From: Dyella dinghuensis
GTDB taxonomy: Bacteria; Pseudomonadota; Gammaproteobacteria; Xanthomonadales; Rhodanobacteraceae
DNA: 64,000 bases
Direction: 5' to 3'
Assembly: GCF_003977615.1 (NCBI RefSeq)
Contig: NZ_RYZR01000006.1
Span: 1-64,000 of the forward strand
Below, piece after piece: positions 1,937 through 18,327 of the stretch (its first letter is position 1; each line of letters starts with the position of its first letter). The notes beneath the pieces are model-generated. The model made no database searches, was not told where the DNA came from, and worked only from the letters and a program-made list of their open reading frames with translations. The translations under genes were made by a program, and so were the position numbers.

Positions 1937-2332
1937 GCGCTTGGCGTGCAGCCGCAACATCAACTCGGCCTCGTTGCGCGATAAACCACAGCGCAGCATC
2001 AATTGATCCAGATCGCTGCCATCGCGCGCCATGAGCTGCGCGAGTTCGTAATTGCTCGTCGCCGCTTGCTGATTCGCGGACGCCGTCATCTGGATCGCGC
2101 GTATCTCGACCGAACGCTTCGGCGCATCGGCTTTCTGCGTGCCTTGCTCCAGCTGGTTCAGCCGGTGATCGATCTTGTTCAGTGCATTGACGATCATCAA
2201 CGCAGGAATGCCGCCGGCCTCGCTTTCTTTCAGCACCAGCACGCGCTTCAAACGACGCTGCTGAACCCACAGCAGCGAAAGTGTGGTGATCTGAAGAACG
2301 ATGAGCGCAATGACGATCGCTTCAAGCGACAT
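1931..2332 (-). CDS. DUF2802 family membrane-anchored protein at end of chemotaxis operon
   Basis: The 133-residue protein begins with one hydrophobic helix (about residues 3-22) followed by a basic/coiled segment and a short C-terminal helix-turn-helix-like region (LDQLMLRCGLSRNEAELML). This matches the DUF2802 family that follows cheW in Pseudomonas-type flagellar loci. A longer reading frame exists, but ATG 2332 is chosen because it begins the conserved hydrophobic helix and overlaps the cheW end by 11 bases. Function is unknown. Association with polar chemosensory arrays is inferred from position only. Confidence 0.7.
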   Translation of the reverse strand: MSLEAIVIALIVLQITTLSLLWVQQRRLKRVLVLKESEAGGIPALMIVNALNKIDHRLNQLEQGTQKADAPKRSVEIRAIQMTASANQQAATSNYELAQLMARDGSDLDQLMLRCGLSRNEAELMLRLHAKRA

Positions 2333-2798
2333 TCGGCAACTCCTGTTTGAGGCGGCAAAGGCGTAGTACATCAAGTAATGCTACAAAACCACCTTGCCAG
2401 CCCATGACGGCCTGAACCGGATCATCGGCACGACCGGAACGTGCAGGCGGCAATTCGATCGCCTTGACATCGGGCTGCAATAAATCGCCCACGGCATCCA
2501 CGCGCAAACCGATGCGATGCGCATCGTGCGCAAACACCACGATGCGTGTCGATGCCGCATCCACTGGCGCATGCGTGTTGAGACCAAGACGGCGGCGGCC
2601 ATCCATCACCGGCACGATGTTGCCGCGCAAATGACAAATACCCAGAAGATCGTCCGCAGCGCCGGGCACCGGCGTCGGTTCGCTGTCGCGAATCACTTCG
2701 CTCACCTGGCTGAGCAGCACGGCGTAATGCTGGCCGTCCAGCTGAAACGACAGCCAAGGCTCACGCGAAATCGCGTCGATGTTGGGAACCAGACTCAT
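2322..2798 (-). CDS. cheW: Chemotaxis coupling protein CheW
   Basis: The 158-residue protein is one CheW domain (WLSFQLDGQHYAVLLSQVSEVI at the start, then LLGICHLRGNIVPVMDGRRRLGL). CheW bridges methyl-accepting chemoreceptors and CheA in the array. It lies 9 bases beyond motD and ahead of the DUF2802 gene. In Pseudomonas two cheW-like genes plus ParA/ParC genes occupy this place, but here there is one. A second CheW-type protein, CheV, is encoded at 57692-58618. Confidence 0.9.
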   Translation of the reverse strand: MSLVPNIDAISREPWLSFQLDGQHYAVLLSQVSEVIRDSEPTPVPGAADDLLGICHLRGNIVPVMDGRRRLGLNTHAPVDAASTRIVVFAHDAHRIGLRVDAVGDLLQPDVKAIELPPARSGRADDPVQAVMGWQGGFVALLDVLRLCRLKQELPNVA

Positions 2799-2807
2799 GC
2801 GTTGCGG

Positions 2808-3905
2808 TTATCCCTTGCTGTCGGGTGCGGCGATGTGCGGTGTCGAATCGATGACCGGTGGCGTCACAATCGTCGCCACTGGCACTATGATTTTCGGAGC
2901 AGGAATCGTGCCAGCGGGGGTCGCCGGAGCCGCTGACATGGCAGCTGCCGTCACATTCGACGGTGTTGCAGCCGCTGATGAGGTGGCCGGGGTGGACGTG
3001 GCAGCCGTTTCGTCGTCGCTGCTATCGGTTTCGGTATCGGCGGTCGGGTTGATCGCATCGCTGTTGGTATAGAAGCGGCGCGGGCCGGCCTTGTCGCTCA
3101 ACACAACCACCAGTACGCGGCGATTCTTGTTGCGGCCATCCTCGCTTTCGTTATCCGCAGCGGGACGGTACTGACCCCAACCTACGATACCCAGGCGTTC
3201 CGGTGCGACACCATGCTGGGAGAACAATCTGGCCACGCTCGCGGCGCGTGCGGCGGAGAGTTCCCAGTTGGACGGGTAGGTATTCGTATCGATCGGCACG
3301 TCGTCGGTGTAACCCTCGACGCGCAGCGGGTTGGCGAAGGGCGCGAGAATGTCGCCGAGATTGGTGAGCACGTTATTTGCCGAGGGCGACAGCGTAGCCA
3401 CGCCGCTTGGGAACAGAATGTCCGTGCGGATTTCGATCTCGAGCCAATTCGGCGTACGCCGCACGACGACCAGATTCTTGTCGATCAAGGGCTGCAGCGC
3501 ATGCTCGACTTCATTGCGAATGCGCTCAAGATTCTGCTGTTCCTCGCTGAGCTTTTCGTCGGCTTTGCTCGGCGTCAACGGCGTGAGCGGTGCCGGCGTG
3601 ATGTGCTGGGTGAGTTCGGGCAACAGGATCTGTGGCAACGGCGAACGCGGAATCGGTACGGGTTTGTTGGTCGGCACCGGCGTGCTCGATTGCGGCGAGT
3701 TCGGAGTGATCGGCGTGATGACTGAACGCGAACCATTGAACGCCGAAGAAATCGCCTGCGCTAGCGCGCGATACTTTGTCGTGTTGACGCTGGACATGGC
3801 ATACAACACGACAAACAACGCGAGCAGCAGCGTCAGCAAGTCCGCATAGGGAATCACCCACGCTTCGTGATTAACGTGGTCCTCGTGCTTGTGCCGCCGT
3901 CTCAT
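2808..3905 (-). CDS. motD: Flagellar stator protein MotD (MotB family)
   Basis: The protein has 365 residues with one membrane helix (about 17-40). The proton-path aspartate is Asp22 in PYADLLTLL. It ends with an OmpA-like peptidoglycan-binding domain (about 165-275, with GYTDDVPI and a NKNRRVLVVVL end). The last 90 residues are an Ala/Thr/Pro-rich low-complexity tail not seen in typical MotB. It overlaps motC by 4 bases and pairs with it as the stator. The MotC/MotD name rather than MotA/MotB follows the position after cheA, as in Pseudomonas. Confidence 0.9.
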   Translation of the reverse strand: MRRRHKHEDHVNHEAWVIPYADLLTLLLALFVVLYAMSSVNTTKYRALAQAISSAFNGSRSVITPITPNSPQSSTPVPTNKPVPIPRSPLPQILLPELTQHITPAPLTPLTPSKADEKLSEEQQNLERIRNEVEHALQPLIDKNLVVVRRTPNWLEIEIRTDILFPSGVATLSPSANNVLTNLGDILAPFANPLRVEGYTDDVPIDTNTYPSNWELSAARAASVARLFSQHGVAPERLGIVGWGQYRPAADNESEDGRNKNRRVLVVVLSDKAGPRRFYTNSDAINPTADTETDSSDDETAATSTPATSSAAATPSNVTAAAMSAAPATPAGTIPAPKIIVPVATIVTPPVIDSTPHIAAPDSKG

Positions 3906-4642
3906 ACAAGATAACCCTGCAGCTTGTTTTCGATCTGCCGTGGGTTATCGCCCTGCGCAATAGAGATCAAACCTTCGATGAGAATTTCGCGCACTTGCGT
4001 TTGCTTGTTGATCAGCCCTTTCAAGCGTGCACCGATCGGCAGCAATAGCAGGTTGGCGAGACTGATGCCGTAGATGGTCGCGACGAATGCAGCGGCAATA
4101 CCATGACCGAGCTTGGCCGGATCGGTGAGATCGCGCATCACGGCCATCAGACCAAGCACCGCTCCGATAATGCCCATCGTCGGCGAATAGATGCCGCCTT
4201 GCTCATAGACTTTGGCCGCGTACAGATCGAGCTGCTCGCGCGTTTCCACTTCCAGTTCGAGCACGCCGCGAATCGCTTCCGGCTCGCTACCGTCGACCAG
4301 CAGCTGCAAACCCTTTTTGACGAAGGGATCGTTTTCCGCATCGATGTGCGGTTCGAGACCGAGCAGACCCTGGCGGCGCGAGATTTCGCTCCAGCCAATC
4401 ACGCGGCTGATGAGATCGGACGGATGAATGACCGGCGGTTGATACACCATCTTCAGCATGCCCAGCGCACGCTTGAGCACCTTGCCTTGCGTATGCAAAA
4501 GCAGCGCGGCAATGGTGCCGATGAACACGATCACGAATGCGGCCGGATTCCACAGTGCCGATACGTCCGTACCTTTGAGGATGGCGCCGACGATCAACAC
4601 CGCAAAGGCGAGGATCGTGCCGATGATGCTTACGATATCCAT
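3902..4642 (-). CDS. motC: Flagellar stator protein MotC (MotA family)
   Basis: The 246-residue protein has four predicted membrane helices. The conserved MotA/TolQ/ExbB stretch YSPTMGIIGAVLGL...HGIAAAFVATIYG covers the third and fourth helices (about residues 152-205). The cytoplasmic loop carries the charged residues expected to contact FliG. It lies immediately after cheA and overlaps motD, forming the proton-driven stator unit. cheB, which sits between cheA and motC in Pseudomonas, is absent here. Confidence 0.9.
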   Translation of the reverse strand: MDIVSIIGTILAFAVLIVGAILKGTDVSALWNPAAFVIVFIGTIAALLLHTQGKVLKRALGMLKMVYQPPVIHPSDLISRVIGWSEISRRQGLLGLEPHIDAENDPFVKKGLQLLVDGSEPEAIRGVLELEVETREQLDLYAAKVYEQGGIYSPTMGIIGAVLGLMAVMRDLTDPAKLGHGIAAAFVATIYGISLANLLLLPIGARLKGLINKQTQVREILIEGLISIAQGDNPRQIENKLQGYLV

Positions 4643-4643
4643 A

Positions 4644-6548
4644 TCAGGCAGACACCCTTAACGACGGAAGCAGCGGTCCACCCTCCTGCGACAGCGCAGC
4701 AAGATCGAGCACCAACGCGAGACGGCCATCACCGGTGACCGTGGCACCAGCAACGCCCGGAATGCCTTCGAACAACGGGCCCAGCGGTTTCACCATCACG
4801 TCTTCACGGCCCAGCACTTCATCCACGAGGCAACCTAGATGCATGTGCCCGACGTGCAACACGACAATATGCGTGCCGCTCGATTCTTTCACGCCCGCCC
4901 ATGTACCGAGATCGCCCAGCACCAGCGCGCGGCCGCGATGTGCGGCAACACGTCGGCCGTCGAGCATGTGGTCATGCTGCGGATTGAGCTCAAACACTTC
5001 GCTGACATTGCCTAACGGCAACGCAAACAGGCGATCGCCCGAGCGCACCATCAGTACACGCAGAATCGCCAGCGTCAGCGGTACGGTGAGTTCCAGCGTG
5101 CTGCCGTGTCCCAGGCGCGAATGCACCTGCAGCGTGCCGCCGAGTTCAGCGACGCGCGTCTTTACCACGTCCATGCCGACGCCACGGCCGGAGATATCGG
5201 AAATCTGCGCAGCGGTGCTGAAGCCGGGACGGAAAATCAATTCGTAGCATTCGACTTCGGACAGACGTGCTGCCTGTGTCGCATCGATGACGCCTTTTTC
5301 GACGGCCTTGCGGCGGAGCACTTCCGGATCCATGCCGCGACCATCGTCGCTCACGGAGATCACGATGCGCTCGCCACGCTGGCTTGCGGAAAGCCTGACC
5401 TTGCCTTTGTGCGGTTTGCCAGCGCGATCGCGACCGGCCGGATCTTCCAGACCGTGATCGACGGCGTTGCGCAAAAGATGAATCAGCGGATCGGCAAGCG
5501 CCTCGACGAGACTGCGATCGAGATTGGTATCTTCGCCTTCCTGGATTAGCTCGATCTCTTTGCCGAGCTGACGCGCAAGATCGCGCACGATACGCGGAAA
5601 GCGCTGGAACAAGCGGCCCACCGGCTGCATGCGCATGCCGAGCACCGCGTTCTGCAAATCGTCGGAAACACGATCCAGATCGCCGGCCATGTTCGACAAG
5701 GCTTCGTGCTCGCTGCGCGCCGCCAGACTCAGCAGGCGATTGCGCAGCAACACCAGTTCGCCGGCGCGGCTGACCAGCGTATCCAGTCGTGCCGTATCCA
5801 CGCGCACCGTATTTTCCGCTTGCGGTTTGGCCGGTACTGCAGCGCGCGCGGGTTCGGCAGGTGCCGGCGCGGGTGCAGCGGCTACGGCTGTTGCCATCCC
5901 CGCAGGCGCCGCACCTTTGCCATGCAGGTTGTCCAGCAAGGCTTCGAATTCATCCTCGCTGATTTCCTGGTTGTTCTTCGATGCCGGCGCGGGAGCACCC
6001 GGTGCGCCGCCGCCGTAAAGATTGTCGAGCAGCGCTTCGAATTCGCTGTCGTCGATGTGTGTGGGTTCTTCGGCCTTCGACTGCGCGCGCTGCTGCTGTT
6101 CGAGAATCGCCTCGAACTCGGCCTCGATCGGATCGATCGCTTTCACCGGCTGCGTAGCCTTAGCATGCGCCGGCGGGTGCAAACGATGGAGCAACGCTTG
6201 CGGCGGCTGTGCGATCGGCGAGCTGCTGGCCAGCTGCTCCATCATCATATTCAACAGATCGAGCGTTTCCAGCAACGCGTCCATATGCGTTGCATCCAGC
6301 ACGACGCGCGCATGGCGTGCATCGTTGAGCAACTCTTCCGCGCAATGGCACAACTGCACCATCGGGTCGACGGCCAGGAATCCCGCGCCGCCTTTGACGG
6401 TGTGGAAGACGCGAAACACGGCATTGAGCAGTTCGCTGTCGTGCGGCGAACTTTCCAGCTCGATCAGCTGTTCATTGAGCTTTTGCAGCAGATCGCCCGC
6501 CTCGACGAGGAAGGCATCGCGTAGCTCGATGTCCAGGTTCGCATCCAT
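4644..6548 (-). CDS. cheA: Chemotaxis histidine kinase CheA
   Basis: The 634-residue protein has an HPt domain (1-105, phospho-His49 in VFHTVKGGAGF), a long Ala/Pro linker (110-245), a dimerisation helix pair (about 247-310) and a GHKL ATPase. ATPase motifs are the N box HLLRNAVDHGLE (about 357-368), G1 DDGRGMD (401-407) and G2 GRGVGMDVV (454-462). A CheW-like regulatory domain follows (about 498-630). No P2 (CheY-binding) domain can be recognised. The linker instead carries three acidic repeats, EAEFEAILE (142-150), DSEFEALLDNLYG (167-179) and EDEFEALLDNLHG (198-210). These resemble the FliM N-terminal and CheZ C-terminal CheY-binding peptides. It lies between cheZ and motC. Confidence 0.93.
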   Translation of the reverse strand: MDANLDIELRDAFLVEAGDLLQKLNEQLIELESSPHDSELLNAVFRVFHTVKGGAGFLAVDPMVQLCHCAEELLNDARHARVVLDATHMDALLETLDLLNMMMEQLASSSPIAQPPQALLHRLHPPAHAKATQPVKAIDPIEAEFEAILEQQQRAQSKAEEPTHIDDSEFEALLDNLYGGGAPGAPAPASKNNQEISEDEFEALLDNLHGKGAAPAGMATAVAAAPAPAPAEPARAAVPAKPQAENTVRVDTARLDTLVSRAGELVLLRNRLLSLAARSEHEALSNMAGDLDRVSDDLQNAVLGMRMQPVGRLFQRFPRIVRDLARQLGKEIELIQEGEDTNLDRSLVEALADPLIHLLRNAVDHGLEDPAGRDRAGKPHKGKVRLSASQRGERIVISVSDDGRGMDPEVLRRKAVEKGVIDATQAARLSEVECYELIFRPGFSTAAQISDISGRGVGMDVVKTRVAELGGTLQVHSRLGHGSTLELTVPLTLAILRVLMVRSGDRLFALPLGNVSEVFELNPQHDHMLDGRRVAAHRGRALVLGDLGTWAGVKESSGTHIVVLHVGHMHLGCLVDEVLGREDVMVKPLGPLFEGIPGVAGATVTGDGRLALVLDLAALSQEGGPLLPSLRVSA

Positions 6549-6561
6549 CCATACCTTCCAG

Positions 6562-7206
6562 TCAGAATCCGAATTCGCTCAGCAGACGATCGACTTCGTC
6601 CTGGCTGTTGACCTTGGCCACTTCCACCGGGGCTTCGCGGCCGGCCAGTGCACCGGTAATGCGCACCAGTTCCAGCAGCGACGATTCGACGCTCTCGATG
6701 AAGTTGACGACTTTCTTGACGCGCTGACCGGCAAGGTCCTGCCACGACTGCACCAGCACCATGTCGTTGAGACCATCGGTACAGGTATTGGCGAACACTT
6801 GCGCCTGACGTGCAAGCACGGCAGCCGGATCGGCGTCGCCCTTGCTGAAATCGAGCACTGCGACGGCGTTGGCGGAAAGCGCTTCGGCTTCCGGACGCAT
6901 GCGATCGACGAAATCGAGACTGCGATGCGCGGCTTTCGCGCTCATATCCAGCACTTCGGCGAGATAGTTGCGCGCATTGGTCATGCTGTCGGGCAGACCT
7001 TCGTTGGCGAGGTCGCTGCCAAGACGGCACACAGCGCCGTGCAGGTCACGCGCCAGCACACCGAGTGCGCGGAACATATGCTGTTCGCGCTGGCGCACCA
7101 TCACATCCAGCGCCTGCTCGAACGCAGCGCCATCGGTGCTGTTGAGCAACGCCACGACTTCGGGCGGCAGATTTTCGCTAACCACAGCGGTTGTCGTTGC
7201 GTTCAT
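6562..7206 (-). CDS. cheZ: CheY-P phosphatase CheZ
   Basis: The 214-residue, mainly helical protein carries the catalytic D-L-x-G-Q motif ([13 protein letters not shown], Asp157 and Gln161). Its C-terminal CheY-binding tail reads [14 protein letters not shown], like the family end QDQVDxLLxSLGF. CheZ removes phosphate from CheY to reset motor signalling. The start overlaps the cheY stop by 4 bases, so expression is coupled. Confidence 0.92.
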
Positions 7207-7598
7207 GCGGAAGCTCCACTGGCGGCCAGGCGCTCAAAGATCTTGTCCAGCTTTTCTTTCAGCGTGACCGCGGTGAAAGGCTTGACGATGTAACCATTTA
7301 CGCCCGCTTGTGCGGCGGCAATGATCTGTTCGCGATTGTTTTCGGCGGTGACCATCAGCACCGGCAAGCCTTTCAGCTTGGGCTCGGCGCGAATCGCCTG
7401 AAGCAATTCGATGCCGGTCATGTTCGGCATGTTCCAGTCGGTCACGACCATGTCGAAGGGACTGGCCTTCAGCATGGTCATTGCGTTATGACCGTCGTCG
7501 GCTTCCTGAATCATCGGGTTGCTGAAACCGAGCTCGACGAGCAGGTTGCGAACGATTCGCCGCATGGTGGAGAAATCGTCTACCACCAAAATTTTCAT
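7203..7598 (-). CDS. cheY: Chemotaxis response regulator CheY
   Basis: The 131-residue single receiver domain has acidic Asp7/Asp8, phospho-acceptor Asp54 ([10 protein letters not shown]), Thr84, Tyr103 and Lys106 (YIVKPF). The open frame extends 50 codons further upstream, but that part is translated palindromic repeat. ATG 7598 begins the conserved MKILVVDD start. Phospho-CheY should bind the FliM N-terminus at the switch. A REP-like element lies between this gene and fliA. Confidence 0.94.
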
Positions 7599-17317: not shown

Positions 17318-18327
17318 TGGGCTTTTTCTTGAGTGAGTTCGAGAGAAACACGCGGGGCACGGCGGCCCGCTGCGGACTTGTAGCGAATGGCGTAACGACC
17401 GTTGGATTGACCGTATTTACCGCGGAACACCGGAATGTCTTCGGCAAACACCGTGGTGACTTCCGGCAGACTGATCGGAATCACGTCGCCGATACGCAAG
17501 TAAAGGAATTCGCCGATGCTGATCTGCGTTTCGAGCAACAACGAACTGATCTCCACTTCGGCATCCATCACTTCTTCGTGCAGGCACGCGATCCATCGGT
17601 CATCGCGTTCCATGCGATCGCTTTGCACACCGGCATCGAGCATCGTGCGAATCGGCTCGACCATCGAATAAGGCAGCGTGAGATGCACCTCACCGCCGCC
17701 GCCGTCCATTTCGATGCGGAAGCGCGAGACCACGACGGTTTCGGTCGGGCTGACGATGTTGGCGAACTGCGGATTGATTTCCGAGTTCAGGAATTCGTAT
17801 TGGATATCCATGACCGGCGCCCACGCCTCGGACATCGAGGCGAAGACTTCCTTGAGCAGGATCTGGATCACACGATTTTCGGTTGGTGTGAAATCGCGGC
17901 CTTCGATGCGTGCGTGATAGCGGCCATCGCCACCGAAGAAGTTGTCGATCACGCTGAAGACCAGGCGCGGCTCCATCACCGCGAGCCCGGTGCCACGCAA
18001 CGGCTTCATGCGGATGAGATTCAGATTGCTCGGCACGGCCAGGCCGTGCACGTACTCGTTGAACTTCATCATTTTCACGCCGAGCACGGACACTTCGCAG
18101 GTCTTGCGCAATACACCGAACAGCGCTGTGCGGAAGAAACGTGCGAAGCGGTCGTTGATCATTTCAAGCGTCGGCAGACGGCCGCGTACGATGCGATCCT
18201 GCTGGGTGAAATCGAAGTCGAGCACCGTGCCAGGCGGCGGCGGTACATCGCTTTCGGTTTCGATCTTGCCATCGTCCACGCCGTTGAGCAGCGCGTCGAT
18301 TTCTTCTTGCGAAAGCAGGTCGCTCAT
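17314..18327 (-). CDS. fliM: Flagellar motor switch protein FliM
   Basis: The 337-residue protein begins with the CheY-binding peptide LSQEEIDALLNG (residues 5-16). The middle domain follows (RGRLPTLEMINDRFARFFRTALFG..GGDGRYHARIEGRDFTPTENRVI) and then a C-terminal SpoA domain. It transmits CheY-P binding to the rotor. It lies 13 bases after fliL. Confidence 0.95.
   Translation of the reverse strand: MSDLLSQEEIDALLNGVDDGKIETESDVPPPPGTVLDFDFTQQDRIVRGRLPTLEMINDRFARFFRTALFGVLRKTCEVSVLGVKMMKFNEYVHGLAVPSNLNLIRMKPLRGTGLAVMEPRLVFSVIDNFFGGDGRYHARIEGRDFTPTENRVIQILLKEVFASMSEAWAPVMDIQYEFLNSEINPQFANIVSPTETVVVSRFRIEMDGGGGEVHLTLPYSMVEPIRTMLDAGVQSDRMERDDRWIACLHEEVMDAEVEISSLLLETQISIGEFLYLRIGDVIPISLPEVTTVFAEDIPVFRGKYGQSNGRYAIRYKSAAGRRAPRVSLELTQEKAQ

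Follow-up and report, generated by a model that had tools for sequence, protein, structure and literature searches.

The CheA kinase encoded in the flagellar-chemotaxis region of Dyella dinghuensis carries, in the linker between its P1 and P3 domains, short peptides that are real and conserved, and no P2 domain was detected in this linker. It is probable that these peptides dock CheY in place of the missing P2; from sequence and predicted structure, we infer the binding of CheY, the face that would be used and a role in the kinetics of phosphotransfer. The computational support consists of the conservation of the motif, its specificity to CheA among 31 genomes, helix predictions of low to moderate confidence, the absence of a detected P2 and the presence of the motif in genomes without ParP. 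The features lie as follows in the window, that is, the whole stretch of 64,000 nucleotides that was analysed:

4644-6548, minus strand: cheA, 634 residues (open reading frame and Pfam), with Hpt/P1 at residues 8-106, dimerisation/P3 (H-kinase_dim) at 246-303, HATPase/P4 at 353-492 and CheW/P5 at 498-621 (Pfam); the P1-P3 linker spans about residues 107-245, with no P2 detected
6099-6125, minus strand: motif 1, the remnant EAEFEAILE, residues 142-150 of CheA
6012-6056, minus strand: motif 2, IDDSEFEALLDNLYG, residues 165-179 of CheA, intact (motif model E 5.9e-7 in its own genome)
5919-5963, minus strand: motif 3, ISEDEFEALLDNLHG, residues 196-210 of CheA, intact and closest to P3 (motif model E 4.1e-9 in its own genome)
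7206-7598, minus strand: cheY (from MKILVV), the presumed ligand of the motif
6565-6606, minus strand: C-terminal peptide of CheZ, 14 residues (residues 201-214), a known kind of CheY-binding tail
18280-18312, minus strand: N-terminal peptide of FliM, SQEEIDALLNG, residues 6-16, a known kind of CheY-binding peptide

On the minus strand, the genes of this region are ordered as cheY, cheZ, cheA, a motA-like gene (recognized by eye), a motB/motD-like gene and cheW, and a DUF2802-like gene, recognized by eye only, stands at the end after cheW. We assigned the CheA to the F6 class from the presence of cheZ in the cluster and from the gene order, the class name being used here independently of any phylogenetic test. 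The F6 class, with cheZ and neighbors in such an order, is reported to drive the motor in Pseudomonas and Vibrio (PMC7184735, PMC7534058). In the Dyella cluster (window 2322-4642), parC and parP were absent between motD and cheW, and cheB was absent after cheA; in both respects the locus differs from those of Pseudomonas and Vibrio.

The earlier note had claimed that this CheA has no P2, which was borne out both by a search with profile models and by structure prediction. The P2 / CheY-binding family of Pfam did not match the CheA of the window even at an E value of 10, and in the positive control, E. coli CheA, the same family was matched at residues 161-223 with an E value of 8e-17. Likewise, no P2 / CheY-binding match was obtained in 92 F6 linkers at E 0.002, for which all 11 Pfam families matched were reviewed, nor in 10 named CheAs at E 1, and no NCBIfam model matched on the linker. 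Considering that Pfam is of limited sensitivity, having missed divergent P2s in set A3 (which holds 12 of the 13 linkers picked for it), and that a profile-profile comparison with hhalign failed its positive control, the absence of P2 rests also on the AlphaFold2 model. In this model, with a mean pLDDT of 84.1, no strand was present between residues 108 and 245. Past P1, a short helix at residues 117-123 was followed, up to residue 251, only by helices at 140-156, 167-177 and 198-208, in the regions of motifs 1, 2 and 3, respectively. These helices were predicted with low to moderate confidence within a disordered linker, where the pLDDT of ten-residue blocks ranged from 52 to 79 (62-79 for motif 1, 56-62 for motif 2 and 52-63 for motif 3). 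A P2 hidden in the linker was rejected, as Pfam was negative at E 10, 0.002 and 1 in the respective searches and the model contained no strand. The motif and P2 (Pfam PF09078) both lie between P1 and P3, and the docking of CheY is their presumed job; while P2 is a folded alpha/beta domain, the linker here gave no such match and only short predicted helices.

Apart from the motif, the F6 linkers consisted of 22.5% Ala, 13.8% Pro and 0.9% aromatic residues, and aromatic residues made up 4.7% of P2-bearing linkers. According to PMC10782961, over half of CheAs are without P2 and have an extended unstructured region there instead. The CheA of P. putida is drawn with a Pfam-based CheY-binding domain in PMC11978298. 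The CheY-binding family of Pfam was not matched in the five Pseudomonas/Stutzerimonas CheAs that we scanned, and the region drawn for P. putida may be the motif-bearing linker.

The peptides themselves, DSEFEALLDNLYG (residues 167-179, 6012-6050), EDEFEALLDNLHG (residues 198-210, 5919-5957) and EAEFEAILE, were found in the linker as the note had described, together with the FliM peptide and the 14-residue tail of CheZ. Of the three motifs proposed, motifs 2 and 3 are good copies, but motif 1 is degenerate and lacks the LL[DN]TLYG part. Motif 1 was intact (EAEFEALL[DN]TLYG) in 14 of the 14 congeners possessing this CheA, a 15th congener (G003) having no close match to it and standing outside this count. 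The consensus proposed for all peptides, acidic-x-acidic-hydrophobic-acidic-x-LL-x-x-hydrophobic-G, had to be given up, since it misfits some of them: a Gln sits three places before the hydrophobic residue in FliM and CheZ, and the Gly stands two places after the last hydrophobic residue in CheA, with no Gly there in FliM. The intact copies of the window fit x-E-[F/I/V]-[DE]-x-L-L-x-x-[L/F/V]. The hydrophobic moment of the motif was 0.53, compared with 0.27 for shuffled sequences.

We sampled CheA from 61 relatives and from 274 genomes of the class. Of the 159 CheA loci obtained, nine lacked a P1 match and were dropped, leaving 150 with P1 as well as the catalytic part. Two loci at the bottom of the F6 range, L132 and L133 (E 1e-104 and 1e-97), were moved from F6 to the controls after the motif was seen to be absent, and L133 resembles the control L140. 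The core pattern, which like the other patterns was written after the motifs had been seen, was present in the linkers of 124 of the 128 F6-type CheAs (15 of the 128 being from one genus) and in none of the 22 other CheAs; without moving L132 and L133, these counts were 124/130 F6-range linkers and 0/20 controls. Conservation in orthologues had been set beforehand as a test, and by the count of 124/128 it was high. By eye, the linkers of the four F6 misses (L038, L108, L131 and L134) contained close variants. The F6 linkers gave 303 matches of the core pattern, compared with 0.035 per set in composition-preserving shuffles. Copies per F6 linker numbered zero in four linkers, one in 12, two in 54, three in 52, four in five and seven in one; they were flexibly spaced, with a median of 27 residues, and sit where P2 would. 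Among the 22 controls, 17 were judged by eye to carry P2. Five CheAs of other kinds (L132, L133, L140, L141 and L154) had, by eye, neither P2 nor the motif; thus, CheAs can exist without either.

The motif also stood out within the linker. In an alignment of 92 linker sequences, 14 columns were nearly invariant: 11 belong to the motif (its I, E, F, L, L, D and G residues), and the remaining three are one early Leu and two Pro (set A1 holds 90 of the 128 F6 CheAs and set A2 holds 92). Among the 14 congeners, pairwise amino-acid change was 2, 12 and 9% in the motif codons, 6% in P1 and P3-P5, and 34% in the rest of the linker. The CheA frame of L112, 1073 residues long, has a linker of 571 residues with a series of PAAPAK-like repeats and seven copies of the core pattern. 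Five of the L112 repeats are almost identical as peptides and differ in codons, and so appear to have been maintained by selection rather than recently duplicated. Across 31 genomes, the motif model had no match outside CheA at an E value of 1e-3 or better; one candidate, in a 243-residue frame, turned out to be a CheA cut by the end of its contig. A survey of 80 named CheA loci, drawn from many phyla, gave the pattern in 37, including those of Dyella, Pseudomonas, Vibrio, Shewanella, Photobacterium, Marinobacter and Stenotrophomonas, and Acidithiobacillus (L264) has two near copies, outside the 37. The CheAs examined from the last six of these genera and from Stutzerimonas were all P2-less and motif-bearing.

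We compared the CheA motif with the FliM and CheZ peptides, which come from the same organism and face the same CheY. The class-typical FliM N-terminus reads LLSQDEIDALLHGV and the CheZ tail GQDEVDDLLSSLGF. Like these, the CheA motif is a short, acidic and amphipathic segment of the form hydrophobic-acidic-x-L-L-x-x-hydrophobic, with L-L at +3/+4 and a hydrophobic residue at +7. In contrast with the FliM and CheZ peptides, the CheA copies are repeated and internal, lying at residues 142-210 within the linker and not at a protein terminus; their first hydrophobic position is Phe, and H/Y-G usually follows the last one. A matrix trained on FliM and CheZ, with substitution smoothing, placed CheA fourth among the 344 frames predicted in a 464-kb portion of its own genome; the frames above it were FliM, CheZ and one unrelated frame, so that CheA came second once FliM and CheZ were left out. 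With the same scoring, the 99% point of shuffles was exceeded by 98/128 F6 linkers, by 0/22 controls and by the rest of the same CheAs in 7/128 cases, and only 23/128 F6 linkers exceeded the 99.9% point. In the reverse direction, a CheA-trained matrix ranked FliM fifth and CheZ sixth of the 344 frames. Recognition was weaker with matrices that lacked substitution smoothing, which at a threshold of 8 picked out less than half of the linkers (58/130), 1/20 controls and 194/13000 shuffles. In a profile-profile comparison, with the windows of the CheA motif itself set aside, the CheZ tail ranked fourth and the FliM N-terminus fifth of 1815 windows, the three windows outranking them being two other CheZ windows and one ParP window, all generic helical. 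The helix at residues 204-215 of E. coli P2 was tried as a match to the FliM and CheZ matrix and discarded, as it came second, level with another window, scoring 5.6 against 10.2 for a P1 window. A 23-residue consensus-like peptide found no match among solved structures. Judging from these comparisons, the likeness to FliM and CheZ appears genuine but moderate, and would not by itself prove a common function. As such, the code for CheY docking that the note supposed to be shared by kinase, phosphatase and motor stands as the best reading of the motif, although the likeness is not decisive and motif 1 survives only as a remnant.

FliM and CheZ peptides bind the alpha4-beta5-alpha5 face of CheY. 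The CheY of the window keeps I95, A99, Y106 and K119 (E. coli numbering), and among 108 F6 CheYs these residues were kept in 108, 107, 108 and 108, respectively. Such a conserved face is expected regardless of the motif, since FliM and CheZ alone would keep it. R92 was found in 97, Q94 in 103 and V103 in 106 of the 108 F6 CheYs. In the E. coli complex, CheY positions 92, 94 and 103 reportedly point towards P2, and F6 CheYs are reported to differ at these positions from F6-like CheYs working with an F7 CheA (PMC7184735). This difference is as expected if the F6 CheA holds CheY differently. As side observations, CheZ ends in DRLLSEFGF in the genus of the window and most near relatives and in DDLLSSLGF in most others, and the CheY of the window has N at position 91, where 80 of the 108 F6 CheYs have K. 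The changes in the CheZ tail and at CheY position 91 are possibly correlated, a relation that is confounded by a single clade.

Based on these results, we propose that the motifs would form short amphipathic helices inside the disordered P1-P3 linker and that these helices would dock CheY, probably through the alpha4-beta5-alpha5 face. A CheY tethered beside P1 would be raised in local concentration and could receive the phosphoryl group from the P1 histidine faster, and several weak copies of the motif may combine avidity with quick release. Phosphorylated CheY would then leave for FliM or CheZ, the competitors for the same face.

Since nothing in the sequence names the partner, the motif might dock CheB, CheZ, P1/P4, a neighboring array unit or CheA itself, and not CheY. 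According to PMC11978298, both CheB and CheY dock to P2. At the Dyella locus, however, the motA-like gene directly follows cheA and no cheB is found there, unlike in the Pseudomonas and Vibrio loci, yet the motif stays; in addition, CheY is the partner suggested by the likeness to FliM and CheZ peptides. We regard another partner as rather unlikely.

It is quite improbable that the motif is a SHOCT-like oligomerisation element or a generic helix-capping element that resembles FliM and CheZ by chance, although several matches favor such a relation. The SHOCT family of Pfam (PF09851) matched 83/92 linkers at E up to 1 and 63/92 at E 0.002, its best match (2.1e-11) extending over six repeats of L112, and among the best 25 of 111 families and all 11 families at E 0.002, it matched the motif better than any CheY-related model. 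Its cut-off of 27 bits was passed by three of the 13 CheAs scanned singly (L112, L104 and L237), the CheA of the window not being among them. A start of the form S/T-x-x-E is a general helix cap. However, it is the later part of the SHOCT model that matches the motif: in 13/13 CheAs, the match started at position 7 to 14 of the 28 model positions, the first 6 to 13 being missing. The CheA motif is also internal and repeated, and its LL pair is presumably not part of the SHOCT consensus. The position of FliM and CheZ within the top 0.3% of windows likewise speaks against a chance likeness. With the model only partly matched, membership in SHOCT was not accepted.

Another reading equates the motif with the CheA-LID, or with a part of it, which would bind the AIF domain of ParP and anchor the arrays at the pole. 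In Vibrio CheA, the LID is described as binding ParP and as occurring only with ParC/ParP, and a review places it between P2 and P3 (PMC7534058, PMC5706961). The location is compatible, as the LID and the motif both lie in the linker before P3 of an F6 CheA, and ParP was present in 78/128 F6 genomes (profile of 16 sequences, E 1e-8 or better). The LID goes together with ParC/ParP, whereas the motif is also present in their absence: by a slightly broadened pattern, it was kept in 48 of the 50 F6 genomes that gave no ParP match at E 1e-8, as in 77 of the 78 with ParP, although a ParP may have been overlooked in single genomes that are incomplete or have a divergent copy. The genome of the window and its 14 congeners are among the 50. 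In the genome of the window, which has eight CheW-domain places, the best match to the ParP profile (2e-6) lies in another CheW-like frame, and neither parC nor parP was found between motD and cheW in the Dyella and Allochromatium loci. The median linker length was 205.5 residues with ParP and 149 without, and the stretch between the beginning of the last motif and P3 had a median of 72 residues with ParP compared with 54 without; this stretch may be the place of the LID. The LID as the sole function of the motif is thus largely refuted by the 48 of 50 genomes without ParP, and we consider the reading very improbable. Finally, an acidic spacer conserved by composition and lacking a special partner, as the richness of the linker in Ala, Pro and acidic residues might suggest, can practically be dismissed, as it is refuted by the excess of matches over same-composition shuffles and by the near-invariant F, LL, D and G columns.

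A second kind of motif was found in betaproteobacterial P2-less CheAs. The 37 loci (L270:6001-7776 and 36 related loci) were taken from a single order (30 of its 40 matching genomes) and from seven named loci, and carried one Trp motif, roughly [DN]-W-x-x-L-[YH]-x-A-[LV]-[TL]-G. The strict pattern [DE]W..L was present in 30/37 linkers, compared with 89/11100 shuffles, and a relaxed pattern in 37/37; the pattern was first seen in the seven named loci, and the other 30 loci gave 23 strict and 30 relaxed matches, the relaxed version having been set after the misses. A single Trp was present in 36/37 linkers, and when 35 of the 37 were aligned (set A6), this Trp was the only invariant linker column besides L111 near P1. 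In the AlphaFold2 model of a betaproteobacterial CheA (mean pLDDT 77.7), the only helix of at least four residues between 116 and 217 was at 147-155; it starts at the Trp, with block pLDDT of 63-69. The spacing of the Trp motif equals that of the F6 motif (0, +3, +4, +7 and G at +9). The matrices trained on FliM/CheZ and on CheA clearly recognized one of the seven linkers tried (L272), the spacing alone being shared, and for this reason a common function of the Trp and F6 motifs is put forward as a hypothesis from sequence. A number of the betaproteobacterial CheA loci also have GRR..D.PG repeats near P3. In four Campylobacterota CheAs (L260, L263, L265 and L301), which have a C-terminal extension of receiver size, the linkers contain a conserved [ML]S..EVEAEI.RL[LI] once or twice each. 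Campylobacterota CheAY linkers were weakly like the motif by the CheA matrix (shuffle p from 0 to 0.038 over four linkers).

The Dyella genome also encodes a second CheA (L350, on contig C8 at about 776760-778052), which has by eye a P2-like block and does not have the linker motif. The different linkers on two kinases of one cell suggest an insulation of their pathways. We tentatively extend the docking of CheY by linker motifs to P2-less CheAs across Pseudomonadota, in which the folded P2 may have given way to linear CheY-docking helices that are specific to each class and have a common spacing (an aromatic residue at 0, L at +3, L/Y/H at +4, L/V at +7 and G at +9), occurring as a Phe repeat in gammaproteobacterial F6 CheAs and as a single Trp copy in Betaproteobacteria. 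Kinase, phosphatase and motor might then use a common peptide code that a single face of CheY reads, and a P2-bearing CheA in the same cell would serve another CheY. Neither the motif strings nor a CheY-docking motif in the CheA linker was found described in the main text of the open-licence PMC papers searched. Taken all together, the conserved CheA linker motif is most likely a variant of the known CheY-binding peptides that is undescribed in the literature searched. With this conserved peptide, the presentation of CheY by P2-less CheAs becomes directly testable using synthetic peptides and point mutants, and the motif could explain how CheYs are kept separate in cells with two CheAs.
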